Of a DNA stretch of 64,000 bases, positions 268 through 59,212 are shown one piece after another. Under the pieces are notes generated by a model. That model had not been told where the DNA came from. It saw only the letters and a program-made list of their open reading frames with translations, and searched no databases. This DNA comes from Haliclystus octoradiatus (Eukaryota > Cnidaria > Staurozoa > Stauromedusae > Haliclystidae). The DNA lies in assembly GCA_916610825.1 (NCBI GenBank), contig OU744452.1, positions 16,393,103 through 16,457,102 of the forward strand. The letters are read 5' to 3'. Position 1 is the first letter of the stretch; every line of letters begins with the position of its first letter. Made by a program: the position numbers and the translations under genes.

Positions 268-3082
268 ACTGGTGTTGATTTAGAAACTATTGATAAAATG
301 CCATTGCTGGAATGGCTTGCGAATAATTATAAAAGTTTTGGTTAGTATTTATTTAGTCAAATCAAATATTCATTTGAACATAAACTGTAACATTTTTTCG
401 TCTTAGCAAAGAAAGCTTTGACCAGGGACCAACAAATAGTGTCTTTTTCAAAAATCCAAATCTCTGGAAAATTGTCAACAATTTGATTTTCTGCAACCAG
501 AAACCTGCGGTAGTTGACGGTTTTGTCTGGTGTTTTGCCTTGACACCCTTACAGTAACTTTGTTTGGCATAATATTGTATGATTCTTATCATTCTTTTAA
601 AAGTTTTCTGATTGTTGAAATAAATATAACTTTAATCTCTTGCTTGAATGGTAGTGAAGTTTTATAGGCATGTATCTCTATTAGGTAACACTAATACAAT
701 ATATTTTTTCTGTCAAGACTAACAATTTTATTGCATTTTTTGTTCCAAAGGTGCTCATCTTGAAATTGTTACGGATAAATCACAAGAAGGTTCACAGTTT
801 TGTAGAGGATTTGGTGGTGTTGGGGGTAAGTTATTCTCAAATGACTCTATGTCTCTTAAATAATGCGAAAAATATTATTTTATCAGTATCAAATGTAATT
901 GAAAAATGTTGACTTCTGCATTGAATTACTGTACAGTGAGTGAAACCTGTATGTAACGGCCAGCTACAAGAGGTAGATAAATTGACCACTATAGACAGGT
1001 GGCCTTTATATACAGATTTGATTCAATAGAAAACACTATTTTAGACATTGAAAGAGTGAGGCTAGGGTTATATGGACGCACCGAACTCAATTCTAATTAG
1101 GTGCGACACCGAATTGTTTAAACTCGCATTTGGGGTTATACAGACGAACCGAATGTTGACGATCTTTAAAAACTGGCCAAAATGTCACGTGATAGGAAGT
1201 AGTTTTCTCAGAATTATACCGCATGGTTTGAAACCAGAGTGTTTTGTTTGCATTATTTTTCATTTTCAGCGATTTTTACGTTCTATTTTGCCTATCTATA
1301 GTTTGAAACTTGTATGATGTAGTAATCTCACAGGTTTGCAAGTATTTTTATGGGAGACAGTTTTTGTTCTATCAAGGCATATAGTACTCAGAGCAAATTA
1401 AATGCCAATTTCCATTATAATAACATATTATGATAAAAGCGACCCCAATTCTAGTGCTGATGCATCGTGATTGACTAAAATAAAACGTTTTTAAAATGTT
1501 TTAAATCATGATTTTGGAAAACATCAGCTTCCCTGTCAGCCATCTTTCAATCATATAAACAAGTCACCATAACAACATCCCAAAAGCGATGTTCTTTCTA
1601 TCGTATTGCCATGGAAACATCCTTTAAAATAATTTATGATTTGCACATCCCCCGGTTTATTGCCATGTAAGGTAGATATAGGAGCTCAGTCACGGCACCG
1701 TGAGTCGAATGTATTTAGTTCGGTGCGATGATAGCTCGCTCGTATAACGCGGCGATGAATTTAATTCATGGAGAAGAGCTCCGCATGTCAAGCCTTGACA
1801 TGCGGAGCTAGCTTGACGCACTTAATGTTTTTTGAGGAATGTTGATGAACCGAATGATGTTATACGAAGCGCGCTATCATGAGATTTAATTTGAATGAAT
1901 GAATCAATTGAGTTCGGTGCGTCCATATAACCCTAGCCTAAAGAAGCGAATATTTGCATATGATTAGCTTTTATTTGTTTTACTACACTTTCCAGATAGA
2001 TTCCAAAATTTTCAAAATTTTTCCAAAGTTTCAAGTGGATTTCAAACGGTGTTTTTAACAGACTTCTCGACCATTTTTCAAATGCAAAATATTTAAAACA
2101 ATTTGTTCTGAGTATCAAATCAAACTGAATGAAATTGACGTCTGGAATCATCATCATCAATTTATTTATTTTACCTCAAATTCTACATTCACAAAAAAAA
2201 TGCCGAAAAATAAAACGCTGTATAGAGGTGACCGTTATAACAGGTTTGACTGTACTAAGAAATTGAACTGAATTAACAACAAACAGTACTGTTTCTAGCC
2301 ATTTTGAATCTAGTAAATTTTTCGAGTATATCGTTAACAGCCAAATACCTTCGTAGTTTACACAACCCAACTACTTAAAATGTCACACAAAAATGATGAT
2401 CCCTCTTAATGAGCAGCTCAGCCCTCTTAATATTTGCCTTTCGTGTTTTCATCATATTTCTCTGAATTTACAAAATTATAGGAAAACAAAAAACTGGAAA
2501 CCACAAAGCTTGTGTGTTGCATTTCCTCAATAGTGTGCCAAGAAGGCATTGACTGCGAATAATGAAATGTAAATTGGATTTTGACAGGTTTACAATGGAA
2601 TTTGATTAAAACAAGAAAAGCAAAAGTATTTAGTGTAGTTTTATAAACACTTTCATATGAATTTCTTGGAGTTACTCGGAAAAACATGTCGTTTTAGATC
2701 TGTGGTGCTCGGTATTAATAAACCCTCTGAAAATTAAATCTTGAATACAGTGAAACCTGTATATAACGGCCAGCCAAGAGAGGTAGATAAATTGACCACT
2801 ATAGACAGGTGGCCTTTATATACAGGTTTGATTCAATAGAAAATACTATTTTATACATTGAAAGAGTGACCACTATAGACAGGTGGCCGCTGTATAGAGG
2901 TGACCGTTATAACAGGTTTGACTGTATTTTGGGTACCGGTATTAATTTTTTGTTGCTGATTGTTTTTGTGTGATTTTGTATTTGTAGGTATGCTGAGGTA
3001 TAAAGTTGATTTCCAATCAATGGAATATGATGGCGAGGAGGATTATCTTTACGACTTTGATGACGAAGAAGATGGATATTAA
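268..3082 (+). CDS. ETF1: Eukaryotic peptide chain release factor subunit 1 (eRF1), C-terminal part, 5' cut by window
   Basis: eRF1 recognises all three stop codons in the ribosomal A site and, with eRF3, triggers peptide release in the cytosol. Three exons are visible: 268-340, 751-825 and 2988-3082 (stop TAA 3080-3082). They have AG/GT borders and phases 1-1, and encode the last 80 residues. [29 protein letters not shown] and [15 protein letters not shown] match the C-terminal domain 3 that contacts eRF3. The tail is acidic ([17 protein letters not shown]), as in other animals. The N-terminal and middle domains, including the GGQ catalytic loop, lie left of the window; bases 1-267 read as intron. 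The 2.2-kb last intron holds two TACAGT-type MITE copies and a larger inverted-repeat element. Confidence 0.95.
932..2254 (+). mobile_element. TACAGT MITE copy 1, interrupted by a larger insertion
   Basis: The left end (932-1058) reads TACAGTGAGTGAAACC, then the family body (GGTAGATAAATTGACC, GACAGGTGGCC, GATTTGATTCAATAG). The body breaks off at 1058, and its right end (GCTGTATAGAGGTGACCG to GACTGTA) reappears at 2217-2254. The gap contains the 881-bp inverted-repeat element at 1059-1939 plus about 275 bp of unassigned AT-rich DNA. It lies in the last ETF1 intron. Confidence 0.75.
1059..1939. mobile_element. DNA transposon-like element with 34-bp terminal inverted repeats, inserted in a MITE
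   Basis: The ends are perfect 34-bp inverted repeats: AGGCTAGGGTTATATGGACG at 1059 and its complement ending at 1939. The interior has no long open frame, so the element is non-autonomous. It holds a 33-nt near-perfect palindrome at 1777-1809 (16-bp arms around one C). The insertion splits a TACAGT MITE copy, so this element is younger. No clear target duplication was found (AAAGA flanks both ends). Confidence 0.7.
2427..2716 (+). repeat. Partial copy of a dispersed foldback repeat (family of 54430-54897)
   Basis: The right part (AATTTCTTGGAGTTACTCGG, CGTTTTAGATCTGTGGTGCT) matches the right end of the 54430-54897 element with scattered differences. The left inverted end is not recognisable here. 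Confidence 0.45.
2746..2926 (+). mobile_element. TACAGT MITE copy 2, intact 181 bp
   Basis: This is a clean reference copy. It starts TACAGTGAAACCTGTATATA and ends AACAGGTTTGACTGTA; the two ends are imperfect inverted repeats of about 22 bp. Flanking TA on both sides fits a TA target site, as in Tc1/mariner/pogo-type elements. Two direct repeats of TGACCACTATAGACAGGTGG lie at 2793 and 2867, exactly 74 bp apart. It is non-coding and lies in the last ETF1 intron. Confidence 0.85.
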
Positions 3083-3576
3083 ATAAACAGCGAATTTTGA
3101 AAAAATATTACAATTGCTAATACAAAAGATTTCTTTAAAAATCATGAAAATACAGCGGAAAGGAAATGCATATACATTATGTCAATATAAAAAGAAAGAC
3201 AATAGCTCTAGAAACTAGCTATGAAATTTAATTGGTCATAACAACTTTATTTTAGATTAAATTATTGAAAAAATATCCCAGTCGTATTAGGATTTGCTAA
3301 CTATACAACGAAATATTTTAAAATCTATGTAATTCACAGAGTCTTGGTCCCATTCTTCCATCTGTTGGATATTATACTGACGCTAGCAAATAACATCAAT
3401 TTATGGATAATTTTTCTTTGAAATATGCTTTTGTATATTGCTAAATTAATTTAGCTCTCATGTCAAATCATATTATTTTCTGATTATGGCATGTTAATTC
3501 TAGCACATGATGCATTTGAAATTTACAACAATGTCCAGTTTTGTTGTTTGTTCATCTCTAGGCATTCTTAAATATA

Positions 3577-3582
3577 AATAAA
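3577..3582 (+). terminator. Candidate ETF1 polyadenylation signal
   Basis: AATAAA lies about 495 nt after the ETF1 stop codon. A second ATAAA-like string overlaps the stop itself and is too close to be used. The choice is inferred from position only. Confidence 0.4.
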
Positions 3583-5253
3583 AAGTGTTCACAAGGGACT
3601 CGATTATAATTATGAAAATTATAACCAAAATATTAATCATTCACAAATATCTTGATTAAGTCATGATTAAGTTGAATCCAAACTTTTCAAGGATATGGAA
3701 AAGCTAAAGTTCAACAAGACGACGGTTATCATCCTTCAGTCTAGTTAAACCCAGGCCAGAATCAGAAAAAGTATTTTTTTTTTCACAACAAGGAGGTATC
3801 CGACAGATAAATATTTGCTATTAATTCTTCCTATCAAGTTTTCGTTGATCTTATATTCAAGAATTTTTAAAAATTCAAATTATTTTGCAGAGTGAAAATT
3901 ATCAAAACAAAATAATTCAACAGACAACAATGAAAATAATATACAGTATTGCAATTTTGCTACAGTTGAACATTTAGTTTCCAGTAAATACCTCACAACA
4001 CGCCTTCATAAAGAAACAGTCTGACAGCAGCTTAGAACAGATTAATTGTAGAGTCATGAAATTCAATAATTATATAAAATAAAACAATAAATTAATGTGG
4101 CCTGAGTGAAAACCATATACTTTGCAGTTTCTTGGATTTATGTTGATGAATTTACTGCTTTTGAAATCTTTCATAGGCGTTATTTGTATCAAAAATGTTC
4201 GAGTGGAAAATATTAAACACAAGGGAAAATAGGACAGCAAACGAGGGACGTTCGAAAGCAGAACGATGCGCTCTGATTTCGCCCAAATTATGTCTTGTGA
4301 ACAATTTGAAGGAATATAAGAGAACACTATCAAATCAAAGCGAATAGATAAGTATTTGCCACCAAAAGTCTGCTTCGTTTTATAAAACTTTTATCAGCCG
4401 CTGTGTGGTAACTCTTTAATGAACATCGGGGTCATTTTATGTTTGTGAACTGTTCATGAACTCCTGAATTGTTTTCATTGAACTGTTGTGAAATTCACAG
4501 GGGTTCTTTTGAGGGTGATTCAGGGTAAATTTCTGGAAGAGTATATCGAAATCCAGAAGAAAATTGGTATTTTGTGATTTGTAGGCCAAATTATATAACA
4601 AATAATTACAAAGAAACTGTTTTAATGTTCTCAGGTATTGCTAACCCGAATTTCAGGCTAAACCTTTTTTGTCTGTTCCTAAACAGTGCTATGCAGCACC
4701 CCATACAAAATAGTACAACTGTTGAAGAGCCTCGAAATATTCATTAATCTTGTGGACAGTTCATGAACATTTTATTGACACTTCAAAACTAGTTTATGAA
4801 CGTTATATGACCTGTTTTTCATGATTTGTATTTTGGGAATTTTGATATTTAATGTTCATTGTAGTTCGCTGACATGTGCTACATCTCAAATTATTGCTTT
4901 CAGGTTGGTGGGAGACACTCAGTAAGGTAGAATAAACTTATCTATAGCTTGTTTAATAATTTAAGGCTTCATTCATGTCTCCCAACATATCATGCAATGA
5001 ACCCTTTATTACACAGATAGTTTTCATATATTTATGGGATTCTACTAATGAGTAATAAAAATGTTGGGCTGTCTTGTGAAAGGCGAAAAAGTAGTAAATA
5101 AACCTTCGCACATAAATTATGAGTTCTTTTATAATAATATTATTTTATACTGTTACACTGTTTCTACCATTTTATCTTTGTATGTTATAGCATTTGAAAT
5201 ACGTTATTTACCCTACTGTTCCAACTAACCATAAATTCTTCAAAAAAGCCTTT

Positions 5254-5259
5254 TTTATT
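5254..5259 (-). terminator. Candidate ARL3 polyadenylation signal
   Basis: TTTATT on the given strand is AATAAA on the ARL3 strand, about 225 nt after the ARL3 stop. Another lies at 5005-5010. Assignment is by position only. Confidence 0.35.
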
Positions 5260-5482
5260 AAGAATCTTGTTATTGGTATGTTGTCCTGTTGCTTCAATTA
5301 TATCCATAAAAACATCTTCAAGATATTATAATAGCGTCCATCCAATAAAAGATTTATCCATTTATAAATAAGACCAAAGCTTTCAAAAACAATATATTAT
5401 CTCTGACCGTTGGGATTTCGTATGATATATAAAGACATTAGGCAGTACCAACAGCTATCATCAACATTTCTCATATACTATT

Positions 5483-8400
5483 TCATTTTTTGTCTGGTTG
5501 AACTTTCTTCAGAACCCATTTGATACCAGCCTAATGTGGAAAAAGTATAAATAAAATCAAGATTTAATACATTTAAAATGAGTATAAATAAATATATAAA
5601 TAAATAAATAAATAATGCCATCAGGCTTTTATACATTTATGCAAATAAACAACAAACATCCTGCCTGTGTGAAAACAGTCCAGGAAAAACAGACCATCTA
5701 ATGTTTATGAACCAGTTCTCAAACTGTTTATAAGGTGTTCATGAACTATCCAAAAAAAAGTCTATGAAAAACAGACCATTTAACGTTCATGAATTAGTTC
5801 ACAAACTGTTCATATGGTGTTCATGAACTATCCGTAAAAAAGTCTATGAAAAACAGACCATCTAACGTTCATGAACTAGTTCACAAACTGTTTATAAGGT
5901 GTTCATGAACTATCCGTAAAAAAGTCTATGAAAAACAGACCATTTAACGCTCATGAATTAGTTCAAAAACTATTCATAAGGAGTTCATAAAAAGTCTATG
6001 AAAAACAGACCATTCAACGTTTATGAACTAGTTCACAAACTATTTATAAGGAGTTCATGAACTGTTCATGAAAAAGTCTATGAAAAACAGACCATTTAAC
6101 ATTTATGTGCTTGTTTATAAACTGTTTATATGGTGTTCATGAAATGTTCATGAAAAATTCCATAAAATCAGACCATATAACGTTCATGAACCATCATCAT
6201 CATCATTTACTCAGAAAACTTGATAATCTACAAGCTTTTTTCACATGGGGTATGTTGACGATTTAATACGGAATTGATTTGTCATAAGGAACAGATTTAC
6301 AACGGAACAAATTTGGATTACGGAACTTTATTTACCTATAATACCATAATCATAACAATACTATTTGCGTTGGAACATTTGACCTTATTATTTAAAGTAA
6401 ACATTTAATGTGCTTAGATTTTATAACCATAGTTGTGTAAGAAACTTATAAGAATAAAAGTGTAGGAAGCTATTGAATAATGTTTAAGTTATACCCCGCA
6501 AACATAACCCGATAATAATATTTGAATAGCTTAATTTAGCCTCTGTATTTCCTATAAATACCGTTGCAATTTACAAATAAGATGAGATAAGCTAGAGGCT
6601 TAATAAGAACATATGTATTAATTCAAGATTAAAGATTATACATTGCATACGCATCTCCCGAAGCGGCGCTGCCCTTCGATGTTATAAGTAAACCAATAAA
6701 GAATATAATCAAAGACATACTTCTGGTGTATTTGGTGAGTCAAGTTGTTCATATTACTTGCTGTTGTCTTGATAGTCCAAGTAGTAAGCTATCGTCGGTA
6801 CACATAAGTTTTAAGTTCCTGATAGAGTTGGCATTAGCGGGTTCAAGTAGAGTCCGGCCCCATTGTTTTAAGACAAACTCCATCAGGGTATATAGTTCAT
6901 GAAGTGTTTATAAGGTGTTCATGGTATTTTCTCTAAGGACTTAAATTGTAGTTATTACAAGGACAAATGAATAATACCTCTAATCCTTCTTTCGTTAGAG
7001 CAGAACAAGGTTGTGTTTGCCATGGACGATCTTTCAAAGAAATTAAATCCAATAAATTAATTATCTGAAAATAAAAAATAAGAAATTGTCATAAATCAAA
7101 ACAAAGCAATATGTGAACAAGTTTAGTTTTAACAAAGTTGACATGAACCTCGGCTACATTTTTAGAGCAAACTCAAAATCTTTATTCAATTGAATTTGGC
7201 GCATTGTGTTTATCAATTTTAAATTATTACATCGCAATTACTCAATTAGGAAATCTACATCGTATGTGATTCCAATGAAAGTCCATTCAATCTGTTTTGA
7301 CGATTTGAACGTGATCTGTAACAGTAAACATTTATGAACAATTCATGAATAATTCTTCAGCAGTTTACAAAAAATTTATAGTCTATTCATTGCAACTCCG
7401 AAGATGTATTATTACCCATTTTATTATATCATTTCTATTAGCATTTTATGAACTATTTGTGAATATTTATGTGATTTCTAAATATATCTATATTGTCAAT
7501 AGACCTGCCGGTAGTTATGTGAAGTATTGAATAACAGCTAAAAACGTATTACAGTATACAAGAGGTTCTTTATAATCAGGGTTGATTCAGTAGGATAATT
7601 AATGATTAGACCAGCCGCTTTATCAATTGATTATTCAATCACGTTGTTATTCAACCGGGACTGCGCATGCGATATCCATCGAGGTTGTCACCATCTCTAC
7701 AATTCGCAATGTCTGACGAGCTACGACATCAGAAAGGTCTCTGATGAGTTCCTTGGCAGGAACGAAACACGTGTCAGATCAGCCGCTTTATCAATCAAAT
7801 AATTAATGATGTTTGTATATTAGGCTACTGAATTTAACATACACACATTAAGCGTTCAACACTCTCATTGCTAACCGCTTCAAAGGAGGGCATGTAGTAG
7901 TATTGTTATTATATAGTAATATTTCTATCACTTCCTTATAATGTCACAGTACTAATATCGTCCATTCATTGTAACTCACGTAAATATCATTCTCTAGACA
8001 ATGTAATCTCATTCCTTGCTTGGTGCTTTAATGAACAACATCTAAACTCAATATGTTGTATTACTATGTCAATCCTGCCCCACACAAAATTCTCATGTCA
8101 TTACATTAACACTAATTAGAAGTAGATGTATAGTAGATAGAAATTGGCAATGTAAAAACGGGTTAGTTGAATTTTTATTGCGAATGAGCAAAGAAACCAT
8201 TTTTCTCAATATATTACCAGTAATTGTTACATTAATTAGGATGATGGAGGATATACAGATAATTCATAAACTCACATCGGCACATGAAGCAGCACCAACT
8301 AGATCTTGTTTATTAGCAAATATTAATACTGGTACACCAACTAATTTTTCTTCTTCTAATAAATCAGCTAATTCCTGTAATAAAAAACAAAGCACAAACC

Positions 8401-18400: not shown

Positions 18401-21400
18401 CCTCGTTATGGAGACTATAATGTATATAGCACATTTCAAAGTCATGAGCCAGAATTTGATTACTTAAAAAGTTTGGATATTGATGAGAAAATAAATCGAA
18501 TGAGATGGCTACGACGAAGAAATGCTGCCAATTTCCTCCTGTCTACAAACGGTAAAGTATTGTTTATTACACATGGTGATACTTTTCATGTCATCCACCT
18601 GTAAAAAGGGCCATCTGTACAGTGGTCATGTCAGCAATGTCCAAAATGTTATTCTGAGCCACTGGTTGCGAATGTCTGTATGCTGTTGTTGTGTCCAGCT
18701 ATCTTGCGCATTTCTCATGCAAGATTGGTGATGGGTCCGATTGCATTACAATACAAGCGGTTAACATATAAAAACATGCGAATAAAAAAGAACATTTTCA
18801 AATTTAAATTAATATCATGTTAAAGTAATTCTCAAACGCATATGCGTTCATTTTGTTATCATATCTTCTGTTATCATATATTTATCTGTTCATATCTTTA
18901 CTAGTGTTCAACATGTTTGACGATTTAAATTATAGACTGTATTTTGATGTTTGTTATTTTCTTGTAGACAAAACTGTGAAATTGTGGAAGATATCAGAAC
19001 GAAATGTTAGGATTGATGGTCCATTAAATACAAAGACTGCAGATGGACAGTTTGATCTTGACCAAGGAGAAATTAATTTTTTACAATTTCCAAAACTTCA
19101 ACCAACATCTCTAATGGTTGAGGCTAGTCCTAGAAAAATATATGCAAATGCACACACTTACCATATCAATTCGATATCTGTAAATAGTGACGATGAAACA
19201 TTTTTATCAGCGGATGACCTTCGCATTAATTTATGGCATTTGCAGCGTACAGATCAGAGTTTCAGTATCTTTTTCATTTTTTATCTTTTTTATTGTATGT
19301 TTGACAGTGACCCCTCACACTGTATTAATTGCTGTAGTCAGAAATAGTCCCTACTCATGGACACTTCAATTATATAATAATCTCCTTTTAAATTTTAATG
19401 TACACATTATACAGACTTTTTTTGGGGGAATGTGGAACATGTGTCAATAGAATAGACACTCTTTGAGACTTTGTTTAAAAATTAACTGCAAATATGATTG
19501 TTGCAAATATGCCTTCGCCAACAGAGTCATTAGTCCATGGAATAGCCTTTCTGAAGATTTGATTTCTTCTATATCTTTGGAAATGTTCCTAACAATACTT
19601 TAAAAAGTTAGTTTATTAAAGAAGAGACAAAAATGGGTCAAAAGCCTTTTTTCGTTACTCAGATCTTCACGCATTAAACTCCTGAGTACCAGAAAAATGC
19701 TTTTGCCTCATCTTTGTCTCTTACTCTTTAACTCTTTAATGCTCTGTTTTACCCAACATTGAGCACTTTCATATACATATGTGTATTTGAGTTTACATCC
19801 AATATAATTCATTTTTTAATTTATTATTGCAAAGTTAGTCTAAACTTTGTAGTTACTCTAGTTATATCAGTTGCTTACTTTTGTATTTTCTGTTTACTTT
19901 ATGTTGTAACTCTCTGATATTTCTCTGTATACATATTTGAAAGGTTGTGTTGCAAATATTGCAACTGCTTGAATGTAAAGTAACAGTTCCAGCATTACCG
20001 ATATTCAAATCATTACCGAAATTCAAATCCGGATATATTTACGGTTGAACTTATTAAATATTTTTAGTAATGATACTAATGAATTCTCTCAATAATGATA
20101 AAATAATTTATTAATTTCTCTCCCTATTATCATATTCTGCTCCCTGTGGCATGTACCAATAGTTCCATATTCAACTGTATTTGATTGATAGAAGTCAAAA
20201 TTGATTGATAATATTCTTCCTTTAATCTGTTTATATTTGCCTTAACATTTATGTATAGATATTGTAGATATCAAGCCAACGAATATGGAGGAACTGACAG
20301 AAGTTATAACAGCTGCTGAATTTCATCCTATCCATTGCAATGTCTTTGTCTACAGCAGTAGTAAAGGCACTGTCCGCTTATGTGATATGCGAGCAAAAGC
20401 TTTATGTGATAAACAGGCCAAATGTAAGTGTGGTTAGATTTTCGCATGATTGACACCAGGGGCCGATAAAAGTAGGGATCCTGCGATACTCGATCCCGGA
20501 AGGTTAAAACAAATTCAGAAGAAATTTAATAATTTTCCTATTTATTGCTCAAACCTCAACAAAAAATTCAGAAGAAATTTAATAATTTTCCCATTTATTG
20601 CTCAAACATCAACAAAAAATTCAGAAGAAATTTGATAATTTTCCTATTTATTGGTCAAACCTCAACAAAAAATTCAGAAGAAATTTGATAATTTTCCTAT
20701 TTATTGGTCAAACCTCAACAAAAAATTCAGAAGAAATTTAATAATTTTCCTATTTATTGCTCAAACCTCGACAAAAAATTCCAAGATTCCAAAAGGCGAA
20801 ACCTTTCATCATATACTGATTGACACCAGGGTCCGATAATAACATGGCAACCAGCAATTAGGTTTCTGGAAGGCTGGCCAAAGTTCCGAAGAAAATTGAT
20901 ATGTTTTTTATTTTTCTCTTCGGATTAAAGACATTTAAATATTGCAAGGACCTTTTCAGGTGAACAGTTTCCAAAGGTTTTTTATTGATGATTTTATGAT
21001 GATGACAGAAAGGAAAATCATTTTTTGGATCCTGATTGACCCTCTTTCACTTTCAATGGACTCTTGCAATGGACTCTTCCCAGTGAATCTAGCATTGCGG
21101 TAGATCATTCTACTTACAAATCATAACTGTTTAACACTGATACGATTTCAATTTTAACTCTACAATTTTATTTTTTATTTTCAAGAATAAATTGCTTTCT
21201 TACAATCTCACCATTATGTATTTGTTTAGTGTTTGAAGAAGAAGAAGATCCACTAAGTAAATCGTTCTTTTCTGAAATCATATCCTCAATAGCTGATGTA
21301 AAATTTAGCCACAGTGGACGTTATATGCTGACACGTGATTATCTAACTGTAAAAGTGTGGGATTTGCACATGGAAAAAGAACCAATCGAATCATATCAAG

Positions 21401-24976: not shown

Positions 24977-45635
<20,659 letters not shown>

Positions 45636-47570: not shown

Positions 47571-50500
47571 AGCTGTCACAGCTTCCAAAGAGGAATCTTA
47601 TCCCTTGTAAAGGTACGACAATCATCACCTAAGAAATATAATGATTACCTCAAATGTAAAAATATGATTTTAAATAGTTTATATATTTCAATTAGTTTGA
47701 AATATTTACGAAGGTAAAAGGCTATAAATTGATATGTAGAATGACCTCAAGTTTACTGTTTCTGTTTACCCCCTCTTGTTTATTACGCGTACTCCCCTTA
47801 CGTAACATAAATTTGAAAATTAGTGGTGTCCAAGTCCATGTTTTAATAGATCACGTCAAATGTTTTGGTCTAACACATCTCACAGATCTATATATTCTCA
47901 ATTCAACAGGTGTAGGCTACTGCAGTTGTATTTATTCCACTTTTGATCTCATCTGAATGAATAGGATAGGCCTACGCACTGTGTCAGACCACTGTGCAAA
48001 TTATAGTTTTTACACCATTTTCACAACAAGTCAATATTCAAATACGGCCAAATTAAGTTGAAAACTATGGAAATTTCCCAGGTTTGAGCTATCTGTATGA
48101 CACATTTTCAAAAGATCAGCTACGATTTACGCCGGGTATATTCGGCTAAACATACATGGATTCCCGGTACTATGAACGATGGAATGATCCCTTGAGGATA
48201 CCGTTATTGGAGATAATGATTTGAATTTTGATTAATTAGGGCTCTGGTATGGCTAATCCGCTACTGGCAAGAACCAAAAGATTCTGTATAATTCAACACC
48301 GTGCTTTTGGTTTTCAAATATCACCATATCTCAACAGAATAAATGTATGTAACTACCTAGACTACACTTTAAGATTTTTCCTTTTTATTTTTATCCACCG
48401 TTAATCAATTTTGATATGTTAAAGTCTGATACTGTAATAATGTTATTTTCCTCAATTAACAATTAAATGTAGGCCTAATCATGTCATAGAATTTTACCTC
48501 CATAAAATGGTCACCTGTCTATAGTAGTCACTTTTTATAATTAACTGGTTGTTAATTTGATACCGGTAATTAGAGGAATGAATAGGCTACTCTGCTAATA
48601 ACATTAATTTAATACAAACCCTTTAGGAGGCCTATGGCATTGTTTGCATTAATGCACAAACTAACTAAGAAAAATGTAACCAATCACATCAAGATCAAAA
48701 TAAGGCTTAGTTTGACTGGAATGAATTGAATGAATCGACAATTAAAGGAACAGACCAGACGGGCAAATACACCTCTATACAACGGCCACCTGTCTATAGT
48801 GGTCACTCTTGCAATGTCTAAATAGTATTCTCTATTGAATCAATCCTGTATATAAAGGCCACCTGTCTATAGTGGTCATTCATTCAATGTCTAAAATAGT
48901 ATTCTGTATTGAATCAAACCTGTATATAAAGGTCACCTGTCTATAGTGGTCATTCATGCAATGTCTAAAATAGTATTCTCTATTGAATCAATCCTGTATA
49001 TAAAGGCCACCTGTCTACAGTGGTCATTCATGCAATGTCTAAAATAGTATTCTGTATTGAATCAATCCTGTATATAAAGGCCACCTGTCTATAGTGGTCA
49101 TTCATTCAATGTCTAAAATAGTATTCTGTATTGAATCAAACCTGTATATAAAGGTCACCTGTCTATAGTGGTCATTCATGCAATGTCTAAAATAGTATTC
49201 TCTATTGAATCAATCCTGTATATAAAGGCCACCTGTCTATAGTGGTCATTCATGCAATGTCTAAAATAGTATTCTGTATTGAATCAATCCTGTATATAAA
49301 GGCCACCTGTCTATAGTGGTCATTCATTCAATGTCTAAAATAGTATTCTGTATTGAATCAAACCTGTATATAAAGGTCACCTGTCTATAGTGGTCATTCA
49401 TGCAATGTCTAAAATAGTATTCTCTATTGAATCAATCCTGTATATAAAGGCCACCTGTCTATAGTGGTCATTCATGCAATGTCTAAAATAGTATTCTCTA
49501 TTGAATCAAACCTGTATATAAAGGTCACCTGTCTATAGTGGTCATTCATGCAATGTCTAAAATAGTATTCTCTATTGAATCAATCCTGTATATAAAGGCC
49601 ACCTGTCTATAGTGGTCATTCATGCAATGTCTAAAATAGTATTCTCTATTGAATCAATCCTGTATATAAAGGCCACCTGTCTATAGTGGTCATTCATGCA
49701 ATGTCTAAAATAGTATTCTCTATTGAATCAAACCTGTATATAAAGGTCACCTGTCTATAGTGGTCATTCATGCAATGTCTAAAATAGTATTCTCTATTGA
49801 ATCAATCCTGTATATAAAGGCCACCTGTCTATAGTGGTCATTCATGCAATGTCTAAAATAGTATTCTCTATTGAATCAAACCTGTATATAAAGGTCACCT
49901 GTCTATAGTGGTCATTCATGCAATGTCTAAAATAGTATTCTCTATTGAATCAATCCTGTATATAAAGGCCACCTGTCTATAGTGGTCATTCATGCAATGT
50001 CTAAAATAGTATTCTCTATTGAATCAAACCTGTATATAAAGGTCACCTGTCTATAGTGGTCATTCATGCAATGTCTAAAATAGTATTCTCTATTGAATCA
50101 ATCCTGTATATAAAGGCCACCTGTCTATAGTGGTCATTCATTCAATGTCTAAAATAGTATTCTCTATTGAATCAAACCTGTATATGAAGGTCACCTGTCT
50201 ATAGTGGTCATTCATGCAATGTCTAAAATAGTATTCTCTATTGAATCAATCCTGTATATAAAGGCCACCTGTCTATAGTGGTCATTCATGCAATGTCTAA
50301 AATAGTATTCTCTATTGAATCAATCCTGTATATAAAGGCCACCTGTCTACAGTGGTCATTCATGCAATGTCTAAAATAGTATTCTGTATTGAATCAATCC
50401 TGTATATAAAGGCCACCTGTCTATAGTGGTCATTCATTCAATGTCTAAAATAGTATTCTGTATTGAATCAAACCTGTATATAAAGGTCACCTGTCTATAG

Positions 50501-53500
50501 TGGTCATTCATGCAATGTCTAAAATAGTATTCTCTATTGAATCAATCCTGTATATAAAGGCCACCTGTCTATAGTGGTCATTCATTCAATGTCTTAAATA
50601 GTATTCTCTATTGAATCAATCCTGTATATAAAGGCCACCTGTCTATAGTGGTCATTCATTCAATGTCTAAAATAGTATTCTGTATTGAATCAATCCTGTA
50701 TATAAAGGCCACCTGTCTATAGTGGTCATTCATGCAATGTCTAAAATAGTATTCTGTATTGAATCAATCCTGTATATAAAGGCCACCTGTCTATAGTGGT
50801 CATTCATGCAATGTCTAAAATAGTATTCTGTATTGAATCAAACCTGTATATAAAGGTCACCTGTCTATAGTGGTCATTCATGCAATGTCTAAAATAGTAT
50901 TCTCTATTGAATCAATCCTGTATATAAAGGCCACCTGTCTATAGTGGTCATTCATTCAATGTCTAAAATAGTATTCTCTATTGAATCAAACCTGTATATA
51001 AAGGTCACCTGTCTATAGTGGTCATTCATGCAATGTCTAAAATAGTATTCTCTATTGAATCAATCCTGTATATAAAGGCCACCTGTCTATAGTGGTCATT
51101 CATTCAATGTCTAAAATAGTATTCTGTATTGAATCAAACCTGTATATAAAGGTCACCTGTCTATAGTGGTCATTCATGCAATGTCTAAAATAGTATTCTC
51201 TATTGAATCAATCCTGTATATAAAGGCCACCTGTCTATAGTGGTCATTCATGCAATGTCTAAAATAGTATTCTCTATTGAATCAATCCTGTATATAAAGG
51301 CCACCTGTCTATAGTGGTCAAATTAACTACCTCTTGTAGCTGCCTGTTATGTACAATTTTCACTGTAGGCCTATGGGTTTGAAAATAATTTTTAATTATA
51401 ATTCACATCACAGCCCATAGGACAGATGTATATTGAATTAAAATTGATTATTTTTACAACAAATCTCTATTAAATTTCTTGTATTTCCAGACAAATACAT
51501 TACGGCATGGTTTATCAAAAAACTTCAAAAGACTTTTATCATCAAATGTTGCAGCTAACGGACAAAAATATGTTGGTAAGGTTTCTACATTTATATTAAA
51601 TAAGCATTGTATTGTGCAACATGCACAGGTCATTATAAATAGTTTGAACTAATGTGAGCATGCAAGTCTTGCTTAACAAATTGAAACTCTGAAAATCTGG
51701 AGTTATAAATTGAAAGCACTGATTAGTGAATGAATGTTGACTTGCTCAAGTCTCAATTCTGTGTTATGCCCATCTTGATGGATTGGGAAGTGAGACTTGT
51801 GTCCTTTGAGAAATCATTGTCTTCAAACACAGAGAAACCACTTCAGTTTTCAGGAAGTGACGCACATAGTCAGTTAGTGTTCCAGGGAGTCAATATGCAA
51901 CTTGAAATCCTTTTCTCGTCATTCACAAATATCGAGCCTGAAATTTGCGAAGCTATTGAGTTTGTATAGAGTTCTGAATTTGAATGATGACATTTATTTA
52001 CATGTTGATTCTTCAAAGGTTTACTTATAAAGAGAAAGACTACAAATTATAGTGATTATTTACATGTAGAGCAAGACGAAATACAAACAGGATTAATGTA
52101 AGCACAACAAACAAACCACAACATTGCACGGAAAAACATTGGTTGAAGCATTTTCGTATCATCAAGTTGACGCTGTCGAAGCTGTTTGTTTTCAATGGCA
52201 GAGATGTTTCGTAGTCAATTTGCTCTGGCATTTCTTTGATTGATATCAAATAATGATCAATTTCCATTCCCGTTCCTGAAAAACCTCGCGATGTCGTGAT
52301 TTCTGAATATCGTAAATATTTTGTTCTGATCATTTGTCATTTGCTACGACCAAACTGCTATTTTAAAAACAATTACTTGTCTTACTTTGTAAGATGTGAA
52401 TGAACATTAAATATTCTAAACGTTTTGTAAACATTTCTAATTCCGGGAGCCTAAAATTCTTTAAAACGTTAGTCAGTATTAGAGAACTTGCTTGTGTTGG
52501 GTGCCCCGTCTTGTTCCGCCTTATGAGTAGGTGAACATTTATGAAACAATAGGATCAAACAAATACCATTGTGCAGGATTCTGCACAAAGGATCACAAGG
52601 ACACAAGTCCGGCTTTCCAGCCATGAAAATGAGGCAGCAAAAAGAAAGCGGGACTTCAGCCAGTCAAGAATGAATGTGATCCAGTCAAACCTGTATATAG
52701 TAGCCACCTGTCCACAGTGGCCACTTCTTGAATAGTAATAGACTACTTGAACATTTTCTTGACTCACGATATGCCAGATTTCAAAGTATTAGTATTAAAA
52801 ACAGCATACCTAGACTTTAAAAGTCAACCAGCTGGTTTTTATGCGATTTTTGCGTGATTTTTACGCGATTTTTACTCACTTTGAGTTCGTAGTGCAGAAT
52901 GCAAAAACTCCAACAATGCAAAATGTAACCTATTGTTTGTACGTGTTTCCAAATGGGGCATCGCACCAAAGGGGGATTACCTCCATGACATTTTTGCATT
53001 CTCACCTTTACAATCAGCGCGAGGAAAAGCCTTATCAGGCTTTTTACTGAATAGTGATGATGATTATGACCGAGGTACCAGAAAGTGGGAAACCTCCATA
53101 AAAAATTGTGAATAAAATGCCTCTAGGATTCCAGAAGATTGAACCTTATATTGGACCCTGCTTAAATTATGTATCTTTATTATAATTGCTGTTTTTCTGT
53201 TGTGGTTTAGACATGCTTCAATCGTTTTATATTGCTTTCTGTTTTGCAAGACGAAAGAAAATACAGTACACTGTATTAATCTGTTTTATTTACAGCTTTC
53301 ATTTTCAACAACAACAAATTTCACGAAGTTGTCACATTTCAACAATGCATCAACATATATAATCAAAACATTTATTAACAAAGAAACCCTTTTCTAAAAT
53401 AAAACAAATTTCAGAACCAAGTTTGTTTATATTGCGAAATGTTGTTTGAATTTTGCATTAATGATTTAAAATTCAATTTCAATTCAATGTTTCTACTCAC

Positions 53501-56500
53501 ACTATCCTTGTATTAAATGAAAACTTCACAATGTACTAGTCTTTCTTCAATGGAGACATCTTTTCTTGGTATTATTTCTTTAATTACATTTTGTAGCGGT
53601 AGTCAGGGTCCGACAAAGTCCAGAAACTTGGAAACATAGTTTGCGGAAGGCTAGTAAAATTCACAAGGAAAATGCAAAATGCTGAAGATAAAGCTAAAAT
53701 AATTAGAAAAATATGAAAAATAAAATTTCGATTTTACGTTTTTACTTCAGTAAGAATACTCAAACAGTCATCTGAAAAGTTGAGGTTTCCGGAAGGGAAA
53801 ATGTTTTGTCGGACCCTGGCAGTAGTTTCTTATTCTTTTTCAGCTTGGAGCCTCTTACAAAATTTTATCGTCAAGTTTCGCCAAGAATTATTGAGAAATG
53901 TTTATCCTAGAATCTCCAAACGCATAGACCAATCAATCAAATTGCAGAATTGCGTTCGGCTACAACATCATATTTTACAATGTTTTTTTTTTCTTTTGTT
54001 GAAATTAACCTGAAACAACTGAAACACGAGTAACTCATTGCTAGTTTATATATAAAACCATGTCTTTGTATTGGTGTTATTATTAGGGTATTGGTTGATT
54101 GGTTGCTGTGCTTCTGTTGCTGGTGCTGTGAGTCTTGGTGGTGTTACACGTCTGACAGAATCTGGTCTATCTATGGTTGATTGGCATTTAATACGGGGTA
54201 TTAAGAAACCATCATCAAACGAAGAATGGGAGAATGAATTTGAAAAATATCAAAATTATCCAGAATACAAACTGTAAGCTGTAATTATGCAACATCCAGA
54301 GCTTGCAAGGATAAAAGACTGCATGCCTAGTCATATTTCTTTATTCCTTTATGATTTAAGATTGAGAATTGGATCATTTGCCCTCAATTGAGCTATTCCA
54401 ATTAATTCATAGGATTCATCATTAGCTTATAGACCAGGCGTCACAGAACTAAATCGGTAAATTTCTCCGGGCAAGTTGAAAATCACATAAAATAAAAGTG
54501 TTCATAAAAATATGCTAAACAATTCCCTATTTCTTGTTTCAAATAAATTTTATTGTGAACCCTTCAAAAATCCAATTTATATTTCATGATTCACGGTCAA
54601 AGCCTTCTTGTTGTTTTGAGAAAATGCTGCATGTGAGCTTCGTGGTGTTTGATTCTTTTGTTCTCCCATGATTTTGCGAATCCATAGAAGCATGACGAAA
54701 ACACGAAATGTATGAATTAAGAGGGCTCTGACCGTGAAGTGATTTACAAATTCACCGTTGGTGAGCTCCACAATGAAATTTGACTAAAACAAGAAACAGG
54801 AGAGTATTTAGGCCCTATGGTATTATTATGAACATTTTATGAGAATTTCAAGTTGCCCGGAGAAACCTGCCGTTTTAGATATGTGATGCTCGGTCTATTA
54901 TACTCTATATTATATTCCTGCTCTTTATAATTAATTGATGGGTGAAAGTTCTAATAAATTGTTTGTAGATGTAGGAAACTTCTTTGGATTTCCTTATCAG
55001 TTTTCTATTGTTTATTGTTTATTCTATTGGTTTATGCCACATCAAAATTAATAAGGTTTCTTACTCACATATGAGCCTTATTATAGCTGCAGGCCTGCTG
55101 CTACTCATAGAAATCCCACAAGAAATAATTAATTTAAGTGAAAGAGATGTTATAAAATTTGAGGATGAGCAAATAGTAGTTTCTTGATCGAGAGACTAAT
55201 TTATCCATTGAACTAAGCTACACTACTGACACCAAACACATAAAAAATATTGTGAAATTTCATTGTGTTTTCATGGCATTTCCAAGGCATTTTCACATTT
55301 TAATATCGTGGATATGGATGTTTTAATGGTTTTCAAATTTTTTACATTTTCATGGCATTTTCACATTTTAATATCGTGGATATGGATGTTTTAATGGTTT
55401 TCAAATTTTTGCATGGCTTAAAAAGTTTGTGTTTTTCAATTTTTTACATTTTCATGGCATTTTCAAGGCATTTTCACATTTTAATATCGTGGATACGGAT
55501 GTTTTCATGGTTTTCAAATTTTTGCATGGCTTAAAAAGTTTGTGTTTTTCAATTTTTTACACTTTCATGGCATTTTCATGGTTTTGGTATTGATAGTGAC
55601 AATTTTACGTCAACGTCTGTTTATTTTTTGTTGTTGTTGCTGTTTTAGTGCTCGTGAAGGCATGACATTATCAGAATTCAAAACCATATGGCATATGGAA
55701 TATTTTCACCGGATGTGGGGGCGTTTTGTTGGCTTAGCCTTCATAATACCAGCTGCTTATTTCTTTCGTAAAGGATACCTTTCCAAGGCAATGAAACCAA
55801 GGGTATTGATTTATGGAACTCTCATTGGTATGCAGGTATTAATAATTGATTATTCAGCACAGTTTGCATGATCCATTTTGAAACTATCCTCAATGGGATA
55901 CCAGAAGGACCAACTTGAGTCATTAACGAATTATGGCCAGCTTCTTCTTCCTTTAGAGCTAGGTAATGTAACATCATCATTTTGATTAACTCAAAGGGTC
56001 TTCTTGGTTGGTATATGGTCAAAAGTGGATTAAAAGAAGAGACAATGAGCCCAACAGAACATCCGCATGTCAGTCAATACCGTTTAGCTGCACATCTTGG
56101 TATGGCATTCACGCTCTATTCATTGATGCTATGGCAAGCGTTGAGCCATTTACTAAAGCAATCCCAGGTATGTCAGCCATTTGTTATTTTTTCATTGCAT
56201 TATGACTAAAAAAAAGATGGTTTCAATCACTAAATTGTTAAGGAATTGGAAGATTATAAGACTCAGTTAAATACTAATACGTGATAGAGATATATTTCAA
56301 AACAATATAGTATAATTTTTAAACACAGTTCAGAAATGTCTACAGAACTTTTCCATGTTCAATTCTTGTGGCAGTAGGCCTATTGAGTTATTTGGTATTA
56401 AAAAATGTTTATTTCTCTTCAAGATTAAACCAAGTTTGCAATTATTGAGAGTAAAGAAATGGTCTCATGCCGTGCTGGCACTCTCCTTCTTCACTTCAAT

Positions 56501-59212
56501 TTCAGGTTAATATTTATTACGCTGTTGTAGGCTATACATAATAATTCAAAATGTGATTTCAATACAATAAAAAACCTGCCTAATGTAGCCATTAATGTTT
56601 TCTAAATTACAATTATTAAATGGTAGAGTTTTAAATTAATAAATGTATTTGGTGTTTAACTGATGAAGTGATGAGAGGTCCTTATATAGATTAAGATAAT
56701 AAAATGCCTCCCTGTAGCCTATTCGCCTGTCAGTTTAAATTTCCCTTGTGAAAAAAGTTCATGAGTTCATGAACGTTAAAATGCCGAAAAATTCATGAAT
56801 TGTTCATCAATAGTTCATGAAAGTGCATGAATAGTTCATGAAAGTGCATGAATAGTTCATGAATTGTTCATCAACAGTTCATGAAGTGTTCATGAACTTT
56901 CAGGCAATTTCACATTCATGAACCAGGTCATGTTGATGATTAGTCACAGAAAGTGCATCATCACTTCATGAACTCATGGATTTTTTCCACAGGGGCTAAC
57001 AACGAAATCGCATCACCCAATATGTAAATGCTTATTATTTACAGTAGGTCTTGTAGATGTTTTTATAAACGCTTTTGTTCAACCGATCTTATTCACATTT
57101 AATAATGAACAAATCAAGAAGTTTTATTGTGATGAAAATAATGATATCACGCAAGCTTTCGTACGGATGGTTTTTTTTTTTTTTGGATTTATCATTTATC
57201 CACAAACCGGGTAAGCTTGCAGCTTTTTTTCACCGGGGTGATTGGTTAAATTGGTTAGTATTTGAAGCTTGCGTACGTTTAATAGTCGGATGCCCTTCCT
57301 GACGCCAACCTATAGTGCTCCGACCAGGGATTGAACCCGAGACCCTGCGGGCCGTGGTCCAACGCCCTAGCCACTACACCAAGACCGCATGAAAAGTGGG
57401 ACATTAAACGAGGTAGGATTATGAGAGTTTGTATGGAGAATGGAAAATAGAATGAAATTTATGTAGATACATTAAAAAGAGGATATCAACCGAGTTTGAC
57501 TGTAATACAGTAGAAACTGTTTATAACTTCACCTGTTATGACCAGAGCCATCTATTTACAAGAATTGGGACACGCTTTCATGTGCCGCTATCGTCTCCAA
57601 TTGGACAGATGCCAGTTTGTTTGTAACATACTGAATTTAACTAATGTTCCTGATGAAATTTGATATCTCTCTTCTTATGAATAATTGGCTATAATGGCAC
57701 ATTGCCTATAGCGTACTTTTTGATAATTTCCTTGGGGTGCCGGATAAACAGTTTATACTGTATTCCAATTCTGCATTGCATTTGTTGTCTTTTTGTTATT
57801 TTAGGTGCTTTTGTTGCTGGTTTGAAAGGTGGTTTAGTTTACAATTCATTCCCGAAAATGGCTGATAAATGGATACCTGACGACATTTTGGCATTAAAAC
57901 CTTGGTACAAAAACATATTTGAAAATCCTACTACGACGCAATTTAATCATAGAGTTCTGGTGAGTCGTTGTTCATTATAAATCAATTTATTAGTTTATAC
58001 CTTACCTGAGATTCATAGTATAGTCAATGCTTTCTTTATTGTCTTTGCAGGGTACATTGACACTTTCTAGTATTATTGCAATGTGGTGTCTCGCAAGACC
58101 AGTCACTCTCCCTTATCGTGCACGCCTTGCATCTAACATGGTTTTAGCAATGTCGTTTACACAGGTAGGCTAGATCTTAATTGAAAAATGGAGAAGCTTG
58201 GTAGACTGGGAGGGCTCCCTCTAATGGTAGCTTGGATCAGTGTATTAAACACTGCCTTTTTCTTTGTTTTTCTTTGATTTATATTGTTGGATTCTATTGC
58301 TTGAACAAAGAAATTTATGGGAAAGACACTTCATAGAATTCGGAAACAATTCACGAAGCTTAATAATGAAACATCATACATCCTATTTCACAAACCTTTT
58401 GATATTTCGTGATCAATTAATATCAATTTTTATAACTATATGTTTCTTTATCAATGGTTCATAAATAATGAACACTGCAACGTTTGTGGACTGTACTTGA
58501 ACTCAGGAGTTGGGTTCCGATTGCTGGATTGGACATTGTTACAATCACCATGGTTGCAATCACAATTATTATTGTGATCAAAATTCTAATAAAAGTTACA
58601 GTTTCATCATTACTTGTGTGCACTAATAGAAAATAATTCAAATCTCATTTTAGGTTTTAAATATAGGTTTTTCAAATTACTATTGTTGAATCTCAAACTA
58701 ATTTTTACAGAAGTTCATGTTAGCACACTTCGAAATATGTTGCATAATTAATTTGATTAATTAATTATGATGACATTTCTCCAGGATCATATATCATTTT
58801 CAAAATAATTATCTGAAAGTTCCTTGTTCTCGTAAGTCGTATTGCTAGAGTGACCGTTATAGACAGGTCGTCTTTTTACAGGGCTGATCCAATAGAAAAT
58901 ACTAGTTTAGACGTTGCCAGAGTGACCACTATGAGCAGGTGGTCTTTATACAGAGGGGTTATTCAATGGAAAATACTATTTTAGACACTGCTAGAGTGAC
59001 CACTATAGACAGGTGGCTGCTGTGTAGAGTATTGAAGTGACCGTTGTAACATGTTTGAATGTATTTAATTTTAGGTTGGATTGGGAATCTCAACTTTATT
59101 AATGTACGTACCAACAACACTCGCTGCTACCCATCAACTTGGTTCACTTACATTATTATCTTTCGCACTTTGGTTTAATCATGAATTACGAGGTGGTAAA
59201 ATACCAAAATAG
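47565..59212 (+). CDS. COX15: Heme A synthase, mitochondrial (COX15)
   Basis: COX15 oxidises the heme O C8 methyl group to make heme A for cytochrome c oxidase, in the mitochondrial inner membrane. Exons: 47565-47612, 48240-48344, 51491-51575, 54087-54273, 55649-55835, 55997-56167, 56424-56505, 57805-57959, 58051-58164, 59075-59212 (stop TAG). Phases join to 423 aa, close to the 410 of human. The first hundred or so residues are basic with almost no Asp/Glu ([16 protein letters not shown] onward), as in a mitochondrial presequence. Core: [79 protein letters not shown] and LAATHQLGS. The four heme-ligand histidines of the family (in HRMW, LAAH, NHRV, THQL) are all present, and several hydrophobic helices are visible. 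Exons 1-2, poorly conserved presequence, are less certain than the rest. Intron 2 holds the 74-bp satellite. Confidence 0.95.
48760..51368 (-). repeat. 74-bp tandem satellite (about 34 units) grown from a TACAGT MITE
   Basis: A unit such as CCTGTATATAAAGGCCACCT... repeats every 74 bp from about 48837 to 51320. Left and right borders are the two ends of a minus-oriented TACAGT MITE: CACCTCTATACAACGGCC on the left, and TCAAATTAACTACCTCTTGT to TTTTCACTGTA on the right. Ordinary 181-bp copies carry two direct repeats exactly 74 bp apart, so the unit equals the internal period of the MITE. Units fall into two linked variants (CAATCC...GGCC and CAAACC...GGTC) arranged in trimers and dimers. It lies in COX15 intron 2, read on the given strand as the complement of the MITE. 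Confidence 0.93.
51993..51998 (-). terminator. Candidate polyadenylation signal of the nested minus-strand gene
   Basis: TTTATT here is AATAAA on the minus strand, about 42 nt after the stop of the frame at 52040-52333, a typical spacing for a short 3' UTR. Confidence 0.35.
52040..52333 (-). CDS. Possible small C-terminal-anchored membrane protein nested in COX15 intron 3
   Basis: I do not recognise this 97-aa protein. It starts [20 protein letters not shown], has a mixed charged region ([19 protein letters not shown]), and ends with a Cys-rich lead ([11 protein letters not shown]) into a hydrophobic segment [16 protein letters not shown] at about residues 75-90, then a short polar tail. An in-frame TGA lies two codons before the ATG, so the frame is complete. 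An AATAAA follows about 42 nt downstream. Base composition is richer and codon use more mixed than in the surrounding intron. It could be an intronless gene antisense to COX15, a 3' terminal exon, or chance. Confidence 0.4.
   Translation of the reverse strand: MIRTKYLRYSEITTSRGFSGTGMEIDHYLISIKEMPEQIDYETSLPLKTNSFDSVNLMIRKCFNQCFSVQCCGLFVVLTLILFVFRLALHVNNHYNL
53604..53818. mobile_element. hAT-like MITE with CAGGGTCCGACAAA ends, 215 bp
   Basis: CAGGGTCCGACAAA at the left is inverted at the right (TTTTGTCGGACCCTG). The flanks GCGGTAGT (53596-53603) and GCAGTAGT (53819-53826) match at 7 of 8, fitting an 8-bp hAT duplication. Related GGGTCCGA...TTCCGG pieces occur near 20820, 26680, 30910 and 31370. 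It lies in COX15 intron 3. Confidence 0.65.
54430..54897. mobile_element. Foldback element with TAGACC...CTCCGGGCAA ends
   Basis: The left end (TAGACCAGGCGTCACAGAAC, then TTTCTCCGGGCAAGTTGAAA) is inverted at the right (TTTCAAGTTGCCCGGAGAAA, then GATGCTCGGTCTA), with about 50-bp imperfect arms. A partial relative is at 2427-2716. It lies in COX15 intron 4. The minus frame inside is not supported as a gene. Confidence 0.6.
55250..55590 (+). repeat. Tandem repeat, CATTTTCATGGCATTTTCAC units
   Basis: ATATCGTGGATATGGATGTT and TTTTCATGGCATTTTCACAT recur about three times, with units of roughly 60-120 bp. A single related copy lies at about 35380-35470. It lies in COX15 intron 4, ending about 60 bp before exon 5. 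Confidence 0.7.
56760..56996. repeat. TTCATGAA-rich palindromic repeat
   Basis: GTTCATGAA/TTCATGAAC strings occur about a dozen times, with a short direct duplication of GTGCATGAATAGTTCATGAA. It is the same motif family as the 5676-6180 minisatellite. It lies in COX15 intron 7. Confidence 0.7.
57238..57388 (-). mobile_element. tRNA-derived SINE (family 2) with RTE-like tail
   Basis: On the minus strand GCGGTCTTGGTGTAGTGGCT carries box A (57371-57381) and GGTTCAATCCC box B (57327-57337). The segment GGCGTCAGGAAGGGCATCCG that follows is the sequence commonly shared by RTE-clade LINE tails and their SINEs. The body is shorter than in family 1 and unrelated to it. It lies in COX15 intron 7. Confidence 0.7.
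57506..57762. mobile_element. Tigger/pogo-like MITE carrying a truncated hAT-MITE end
   Basis: The ends TACAGTAGAAACTGTTTATA and ATAAACAGTTTATACTGTA are inverted with TA borders. Inside, 57542-57616 (CAGAGCCATCTATTTACAAG to GACAGATGCCAGT) is one end of the hAT-like MITE at 11337-11619, broken off after about 75 bp. It lies in COX15 intron 7. Confidence 0.65.
58846..59062 (+). mobile_element. TACAGT MITE relative with three 74-bp-type modules, next to a splice acceptor
   Basis: GTGACC(A/G)(C/T)TAT..CAGGT modules recur three times (near 58851, 58920 and 58994), and the right end reads CATGTTTGAATGTA. The left TACAGT end is missing. It ends only about 12 bp before the acceptor of COX15 exon 10 (59075), so the branch point may lie in it. 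Confidence 0.7.

Follow-up and report, generated by a model that had tools for sequence, protein, structure and literature searches.

The growth of satellites from repeats inside transposons is already in print. In Xenopus, the miniature inverted-repeat transposable element (MITE) Xstir occurs in tandem arrays and composite forms (Hikosaka and Kawahara 2004, as cited in PMC12628747 and PMC2872659), and the Tc1/mariner MITE miDNA4 has satellite units in its interior, in varying number (Scalvenzi and Pollet, as cited in PMC12628747). The Tetris element of Drosophila virilis contains the internal repeats TIR-220 (PMC4079207), tandem arrays of whole CMITEs are reported from corals (PMC2872659), and pogo/Tigger-like transposons (PMC7325037) are a further point of comparison. 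The subject here is a stretch of 64,000 nucleotides from the stalked jellyfish Haliclystus octoradiatus (assembly GCA_916610825.1, contig OU744452.1, positions 16,393,103 to 16,457,102; "the window" below), in which a tandem array of 74-bp units lies at a presumed COX15 locus, within a copy of a 181-bp MITE that ordinarily carries two direct repeats, here called cores. The COX15 array very probably grew in place inside this MITE, by misaligned exchange or slippage between its cores. The intermediate stages of such growth are unusually complete in this genome.

Xstir resembles the present family in being a MITE with tandem arrays and composite forms, and its tandem repeat, according to the same sources, may come from the internal sequence of the MITE. 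It is, however, cited as a piggyBac-MITE (PMC2872659), whereas the present element is pogo-like, with a unit set by two direct core repeats and a core that is also found in a transposase-coding relative. Like the present family, miDNA4 is of the Tc1/mariner type, holds from one to many units inside the MITE and has arrays that later lose their ends; its authors, as cited in PMC12628747, suggest the capture of an existing tandem repeat, with short AT-rich direct repeats, whereas here the unit comes from repeats of the element itself. The internal repeats of Tetris share sequence with the element's end, show a change in copy number that is ascribed to unequal crossing-over and also form longer satellite-like arrays (PMC4079207), but that element is foldback-like, with a unit of ~220 bp and amplification in beta-heterochromatin, in contrast to a 74-bp unit that is dispersed and, in one case, intronic. 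The likeness to pogo/Tigger elements lies in the TA beside CAGT ends and in a transposase-coding relative with CENP-B_N, HTH_Tnp_Tc5 and DDE_1 domains; unlike these, the present MITE is non-coding and has turned into arrays. Among the titles listed in a literature search, none concerned satellites made by a pogo-type MITE, though this is no proof of absence.

Three adjoining features make up the array and its borders:
48786..51320, minus strand: tandem array of 35 cores and 34 spacers in 74-bp units (Tandem Repeats Finder, core spacing, sequence).
51321..51367, minus strand: MITE 5' segment with terminal inverted repeat, outer end TACAGT (blastn, border score, phase).
48770..48785, minus strand: MITE 3' segment remnant past the last core, 16 bp, 15/16 matching.

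Tandem Repeats Finder (TRF) places the array at 48772-51320, with period 74, 34.5 copies and 96% matches, and counting from core to core gives 35 cores and 34 spacings (33 of 74 bp, the last of 73 bp). Both values agree with the roughly 34 tandem 74-bp units of an initial annotation of this DNA. The cores, TGACCACTATAGACAGGTGG, each match at 19 or 20 of 20 positions and read on the minus strand, which is the orientation of the element here and the one previously assigned. The same annotation saw two MITE ends bordering the array, and this stands for one of them. On the 5' side, the MITE segment adjoins the first core of the array in phase 0, with a border score of 31 against an internal maximum of 9; at 80% identity over 45 bp to the copy at 2746 (blastn), it is complete yet diverged. 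On the 3' side only the 16-bp remnant is left, the outer 24 bp including the 3' terminal inverted repeat are missing, and a score of 15 against an internal maximum of 14 falls below the strict border cut given further on. Units are 0.971 identical within the array and 0.847 identical to units of other arrays. They fall into two main types, with linkage between module sites 20 and 35 that extends partly to 47 and 69. Regular higher-order periodicity was not found in the window array, the observed maximum lag identity being reached in 459 of 500 permutations.

The array units are thus homologous to an internal MITE segment, with transposon ends at the borders. Classical satellites form long heterochromatic arrays; the window array, 2.5 kb and inside a gene, differs from these in length and place. 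The gene is presumably COX15, by peptide motifs like those of the human protein; such motifs lie downstream of the array at 54149, 55707 and 56006 and support the earlier placement in COX15. Next to the array stands a further feature:
51490..51577, plus strand: candidate COX15 exon with an open frame of 29 residues, limits set by eye.

The family to which the array belongs is represented elsewhere in the window by three copies:
2746..2926, plus strand: two-core MITE copy, 181 bp, cores at 2793 and 2867.
29599..29779, plus strand: two-core MITE copy, 181 bp, an ordinary copy.
58851..59063, plus strand: older three-core copy, cores at 58851, 58923 and 58997, spacings 72 and 74.

The first of these is the copy given as an example in the initial annotation, and it indeed holds two exact TGACCACTATAGACAGGTGG, 74 bp apart, in 181 bp; in the three-core copy the 3' end was found and the 5' end was undetected. 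The family consensus (38 full copies, with only copies of 170-192 bp that aligned nearly end to end as input) has 181 bp and a pair of identical 20-bp cores spaced by exactly 74 bp, each within ~35 bp of repeated sequence. An exact length of 181 bp is found in 30 of the 38 aligned copies, a set pre-selected for 170-192 bp. The terminal inverted repeats are TACAGTGAAACCTGT at one end and, inverted, TACAGTCAAACCTGT at the other. Sampled 5' ends start with TA, a putative target site duplication that was itself part of the search pattern. In the genome searched (261.9 Mb, 33 contigs), the 26-mer of the 5' end matches 4704 places with up to two mismatches, and a 35-base module segment 5200 places with up to three; the reversed controls match none, and chance matching of the MITE 5' end is excluded. 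By its shortness, uniform length, very many copies and terminal inverted repeats, the element is a MITE; by the relative described below, it is a non-autonomous transposon of the pogo/Tigger-like type.

Module number varies across the genome around a dominant two-core form. Junction patterns with up to three mismatches, whose reversed controls gave 0, match 100 one-core junctions, 3638 first-core junctions of copies with at least two cores and 286 internal junctions that require at least three, although older, more diverged copies are missed by such patterns. Other internally expanded copies, for which the initial annotation had advised a genome search, are therefore present, with core numbers scattered from 3 to at least 58. 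The first 100 of the 286 internal matches form 39 loci when clustered by hand, and the loci tested below are part of the total. Among the first 20 copies listed on C1 with an exact 5' end, which was the sole criterion, 18 have two cores in 180-182 bp; of the other two, one has two cores and a 3' end at 279 bp, and the other is irregular. A one-core copy neighbouring the sampled ones measures 107 bp, that is 181 minus 74, and further one-core copies of 106-107 bp occur in loci L028 and L031. Module gain and loss therefore both occur, and the one-core form may also have transposed as such. The usual core spacing in the arrays read is 74, with some units of 57-98 bp. The longest array read (L024 with L076) has at least 58 cores in at least 4.2 kb and runs past the fetched DNA. 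Another, L075 (C5:27.617 Mb), is bordered by the MITE, shows a higher-order period of 445 bp and extends over ~5.9 kb including a 3.2-kb insertion.

A single genome thus holds one-, two-, three- and four-core copies and arrays of at least 58 cores, all of one MITE family and many with ends. Satellites are usually visible only when finished; with stages such as these, one could measure how fast modules are gained and lost, what part the direct repeats play and how the ends later disappear.

Whether arrays sit inside the MITE was read at their borders. The arrays were sourced from 34 loci (L009-L042), found by means of the window units, and from further stretches, so the sample was picked by unit similarity and not by ends, with a bias toward well-kept units. 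Twenty-four of L009-L042 together with L075 and L077 give 26 arrays with at least three cores. Excluded were L022 and L026 (two cores), L030 (nested) and L034-L037, L040 and L041 (two-core copies); the three-core copies L038 and window 58851 were tested separately. L024 and L077, which run past the fetched DNA, do not enter the 3'-end counts, and L075, split by its insertion, was handled by hand as a single array. The cut was 16 (the top of 5000 random windows) or the array's own internal maximum plus 3, and an accepted end scored above both the random cut and the internal units of its array. The 5' end of L023, visible by alignment, was hidden in this test by a spurious extra core, and L021 was confounded by an abutting second copy.

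The MITE 5' end is kept in 21 of the 26 arrays (22 of 28 with L038 and window 58851 added), and the 3' end in 16 of the 24 arrays with both edges read (18 of 26). Both ends are kept in 12 of 24 (13 of 26), and L018 alone has neither (1/24; 1/26). Of the two copies tested separately, one has both ends and the other the 3' end only. For arrays with at least ten cores the counts are 11/11 at the 5' end and 4/9 at the 3' end. Of the 18 loci scoring above 16 at the 5' end, 16 have a 5' border that keeps the phase of the MITE, a count taken from border scoring in which some boundary cores were 17 bp off and MITE copies were part of the null.

The units themselves were compared with one another and with 37 modules from ordinary copies; the array units used measured 70-80 bp, and loci with at least four such units were tabled. 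In the 17 loci of this size, 243 of 255 units have their strictly nearest neighbour in their own array. The unit phylogeny suggested in the initial annotation groups the units of the larger arrays by locus: the tree (29 labels, 315 tips) requires 47 label changes, where shuffling gives a mean of 243. The unit consensuses of the 15 arrays with at least four units are all different. The boundary core of L024 agrees with the family core at 20/20 positions and the inner cores at 15-17/20, as the amplification of a single altered inner unit would produce. Since MITE ends stand at the arrays, the two-core form is the ordinary one and the units are locus-specific, the satellite was born inside the MITE. 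The births were local and occurred more than once, at least for the larger arrays, so that of the new satellite previously derived from a single dispersed MITE family the origin inside the MITE is upheld and a single birth gives way to several separate ones.

Selective constraint on the core is not claimed from these comparisons, as arrays were found by their units, which favours well-kept units. The array consensuses (n=15) differ from the family consensus at 14/300 core, 77/810 spacer and 187/1137 end sites, 13 of the 77 spacer differences come from one subfamily site, and conservation in full non-array copies is nearly flat, at 0.94-0.97.

A transposase-coding relative was sought by way of the DDE_1 domain, which gave 97 matches in the genome, some of them pieces of a single frame. 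Of the stretches read around 12 of these matches, five (L043-L047) have MITE-like ends at E < 1e-5. The closest relative among the 12 is L047 (C10:17099000-17102700), with ends 76% identical to the MITE over 80 bp and 67% over 134 bp and an inverted repeat CAGTCAAACCTGTATATAACGG that recurs at 21/22 positions at the opposite end. It holds an uninterrupted frame of 533 aa, opposite to the MITE orientation, with the CENP-B_N, HTH_Tnp_Tc5 and DDE_1 domains. CAG-type ends are a property of pogo elements; at the 3' end of L047, TA and CAGT are separated by an additional base. Sites resembling the core, chosen by eye, lie at 2975 and 3047 in its 3' end, 72 bp apart, and at 712 in its 5' end. Judged by sequence comparison, L047 is a relative of the MITE and not a close parent. 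From its paired core-like sites, the direct repeats are probably older than both the array and the MITE, which may itself have arisen by deletion between such sites.

For the COX15 array, these data suggest the following course. One 181-bp copy would have inserted in the COX15 locus, reading on the minus strand. Its two cores would then have served as the sites of misaligned exchange or replication slippage, by which the 74-bp module was duplicated; and more rounds would have raised the number of cores from 2 to 35, with the outer part of the 3' end lost meanwhile. Slippage or unequal crossing-over between the internal repeats, the source of the array already favoured in the initial annotation, explains the data best because a single process accounts for a unit equal to the core spacing, for the gain and loss of whole modules, for borders made of MITE ends and for units specific to their locus in the larger arrays. 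That the exchange step was local and mediated by the cores, and not by rolling circles or import, we infer, as we do its timing.

Several observations weigh against this account or restrict it. Eight of the 24 arrays have no 3' end or one that falls short of the cut, among them the window array and five of the nine with at least ten cores. Module site 35 is T in 34 of the 38 common copies; it is G or A in 13 of 15 arrays but in 3 of 20 full copies met incidentally (Fisher p 3e-5), so that an older or particular subfamily, and not the copies at large, gave rise to the arrays. The unit types of the window array differ at module sites 20, 35 and 69 by states that also occur elsewhere in the family, and it is possible that a second copy contributed to it by conversion or ectopic exchange. 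Lastly, locus-specificity is weak in nine loci of 2-5 units, where 12 of 26 units have their closest match at home, ties being counted as own; such small loci may reflect the copying of an already expanded element, and short multi-core copies may in part be copies of one another.

This last result is also what would be seen if a few expanded master copies had transposed, the arrays at different loci being copies of each other. A G to A change at module site 20 is shared by C1:38.1-39.0 Mb and C5:25.06 and 27.6 Mb, recurs at C11:0.75 and 6.07 Mb and in part of the window array, and short multi-core copies with both ends exist (L010, L011, L038). As a general explanation, transposed masters are nevertheless unlikely, given the distinct consensuses of all 15 arrays with at least four units, the clustering of units by locus in 17 loci and the spread of core numbers from 3 to at least 58. 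Moved masters may explain the variants that some copies have in common. Growth through rolling-circle copies (extrachromosomal circular DNA) reinserted into the MITE would add many units at once, and the 445-bp higher-order period at C5:27.617 Mb fits jumps of several units; but it is not needed for one-, three- and four-core copies, and with 5' borders in phase at 16 of 18 loci we regard it as improbable. The capture of a pre-existing 74-bp satellite by the MITE, as proposed in print for Xenopus miDNA4 (Scalvenzi and Pollet, as cited in PMC12628747) and preferred in advance by the initial annotation should the satellite prove widespread without MITE ends, fits L018, but is very unlikely from the end counts at the tested arrays, where both ends are missing in just this one of 26 arrays with both edges read, from the ordinary status of the two-core form and from the core-like pair, 72 bp apart, already present in the 3' end of L047.

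By analogy, the core could be a subterminal site that is recognised by a pogo-type transposase through a CENP-B-like DNA-binding domain, in which case expansion would multiply binding sites; we put this forward as a doubtful but possible suggestion. A link between pogo elements, CENP-B boxes and satellites is thought to have occurred in mammals. If the core were such a site, this genome would replay the step from pogo element to CENP-B box and satellite at dozens of loci and in all stages, and the arrays could be sinks for the transposase or for a tamed descendant of it. Through its link to a pogo-type transposase, the family offers a way to test how transposon ends may become satellite units.

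A second pogo-like group is represented by L048, L050 and L051 (C7, C10), in which perfect 25-bp ends TACAGTGAAACCCCGTTAATATCAC flank DDE_1 frames; the perfect ends suggest recent activity. Within L075, the 3.2 kb at 2399-5643 (C5:27.619-27.623 Mb) that split the 74-bp array contain reverse-transcriptase-like frames and resemble, by eye, a long interspersed element (LINE). At L030 2486-3232 (C11:2.492 Mb), MITE 5' ends alternate with modules at a spacing of ~272 bp, as if a MITE had inserted in a MITE and the composite had then been repeated. Four one-core copies at C11:15.978-16.028 Mb, identical in the matched sequence and ~15.5-19 kb apart, suggest a larger tandem duplication.

The position of expanded copies along the contigs differs between comparisons. 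On C1, the outer tenths contain all eight loci with at least three cores but 24 of the 69 exact two-core junctions (rank test p ~2e-5). Genome-wide, a bias toward contig ends is not significant, either for the 39 loci hand-clustered from the first 100 of 286 matches (19/39 in the outer tenths against 36/100 one-core loci, p 0.18) or for 17 arrays, ten of them in the outer tenths (p 0.25).

The window contains other repeats reported by TRF. An ATAG repeat at 43057-43522 is perfect, with 116.5 copies and 100% matches, and a TTA repeat at 40784-41360 has ~192 copies at 96%. Further tandem arrays lie at 5672-6191 (82-bp units) and 20511-20781 (53-bp units).

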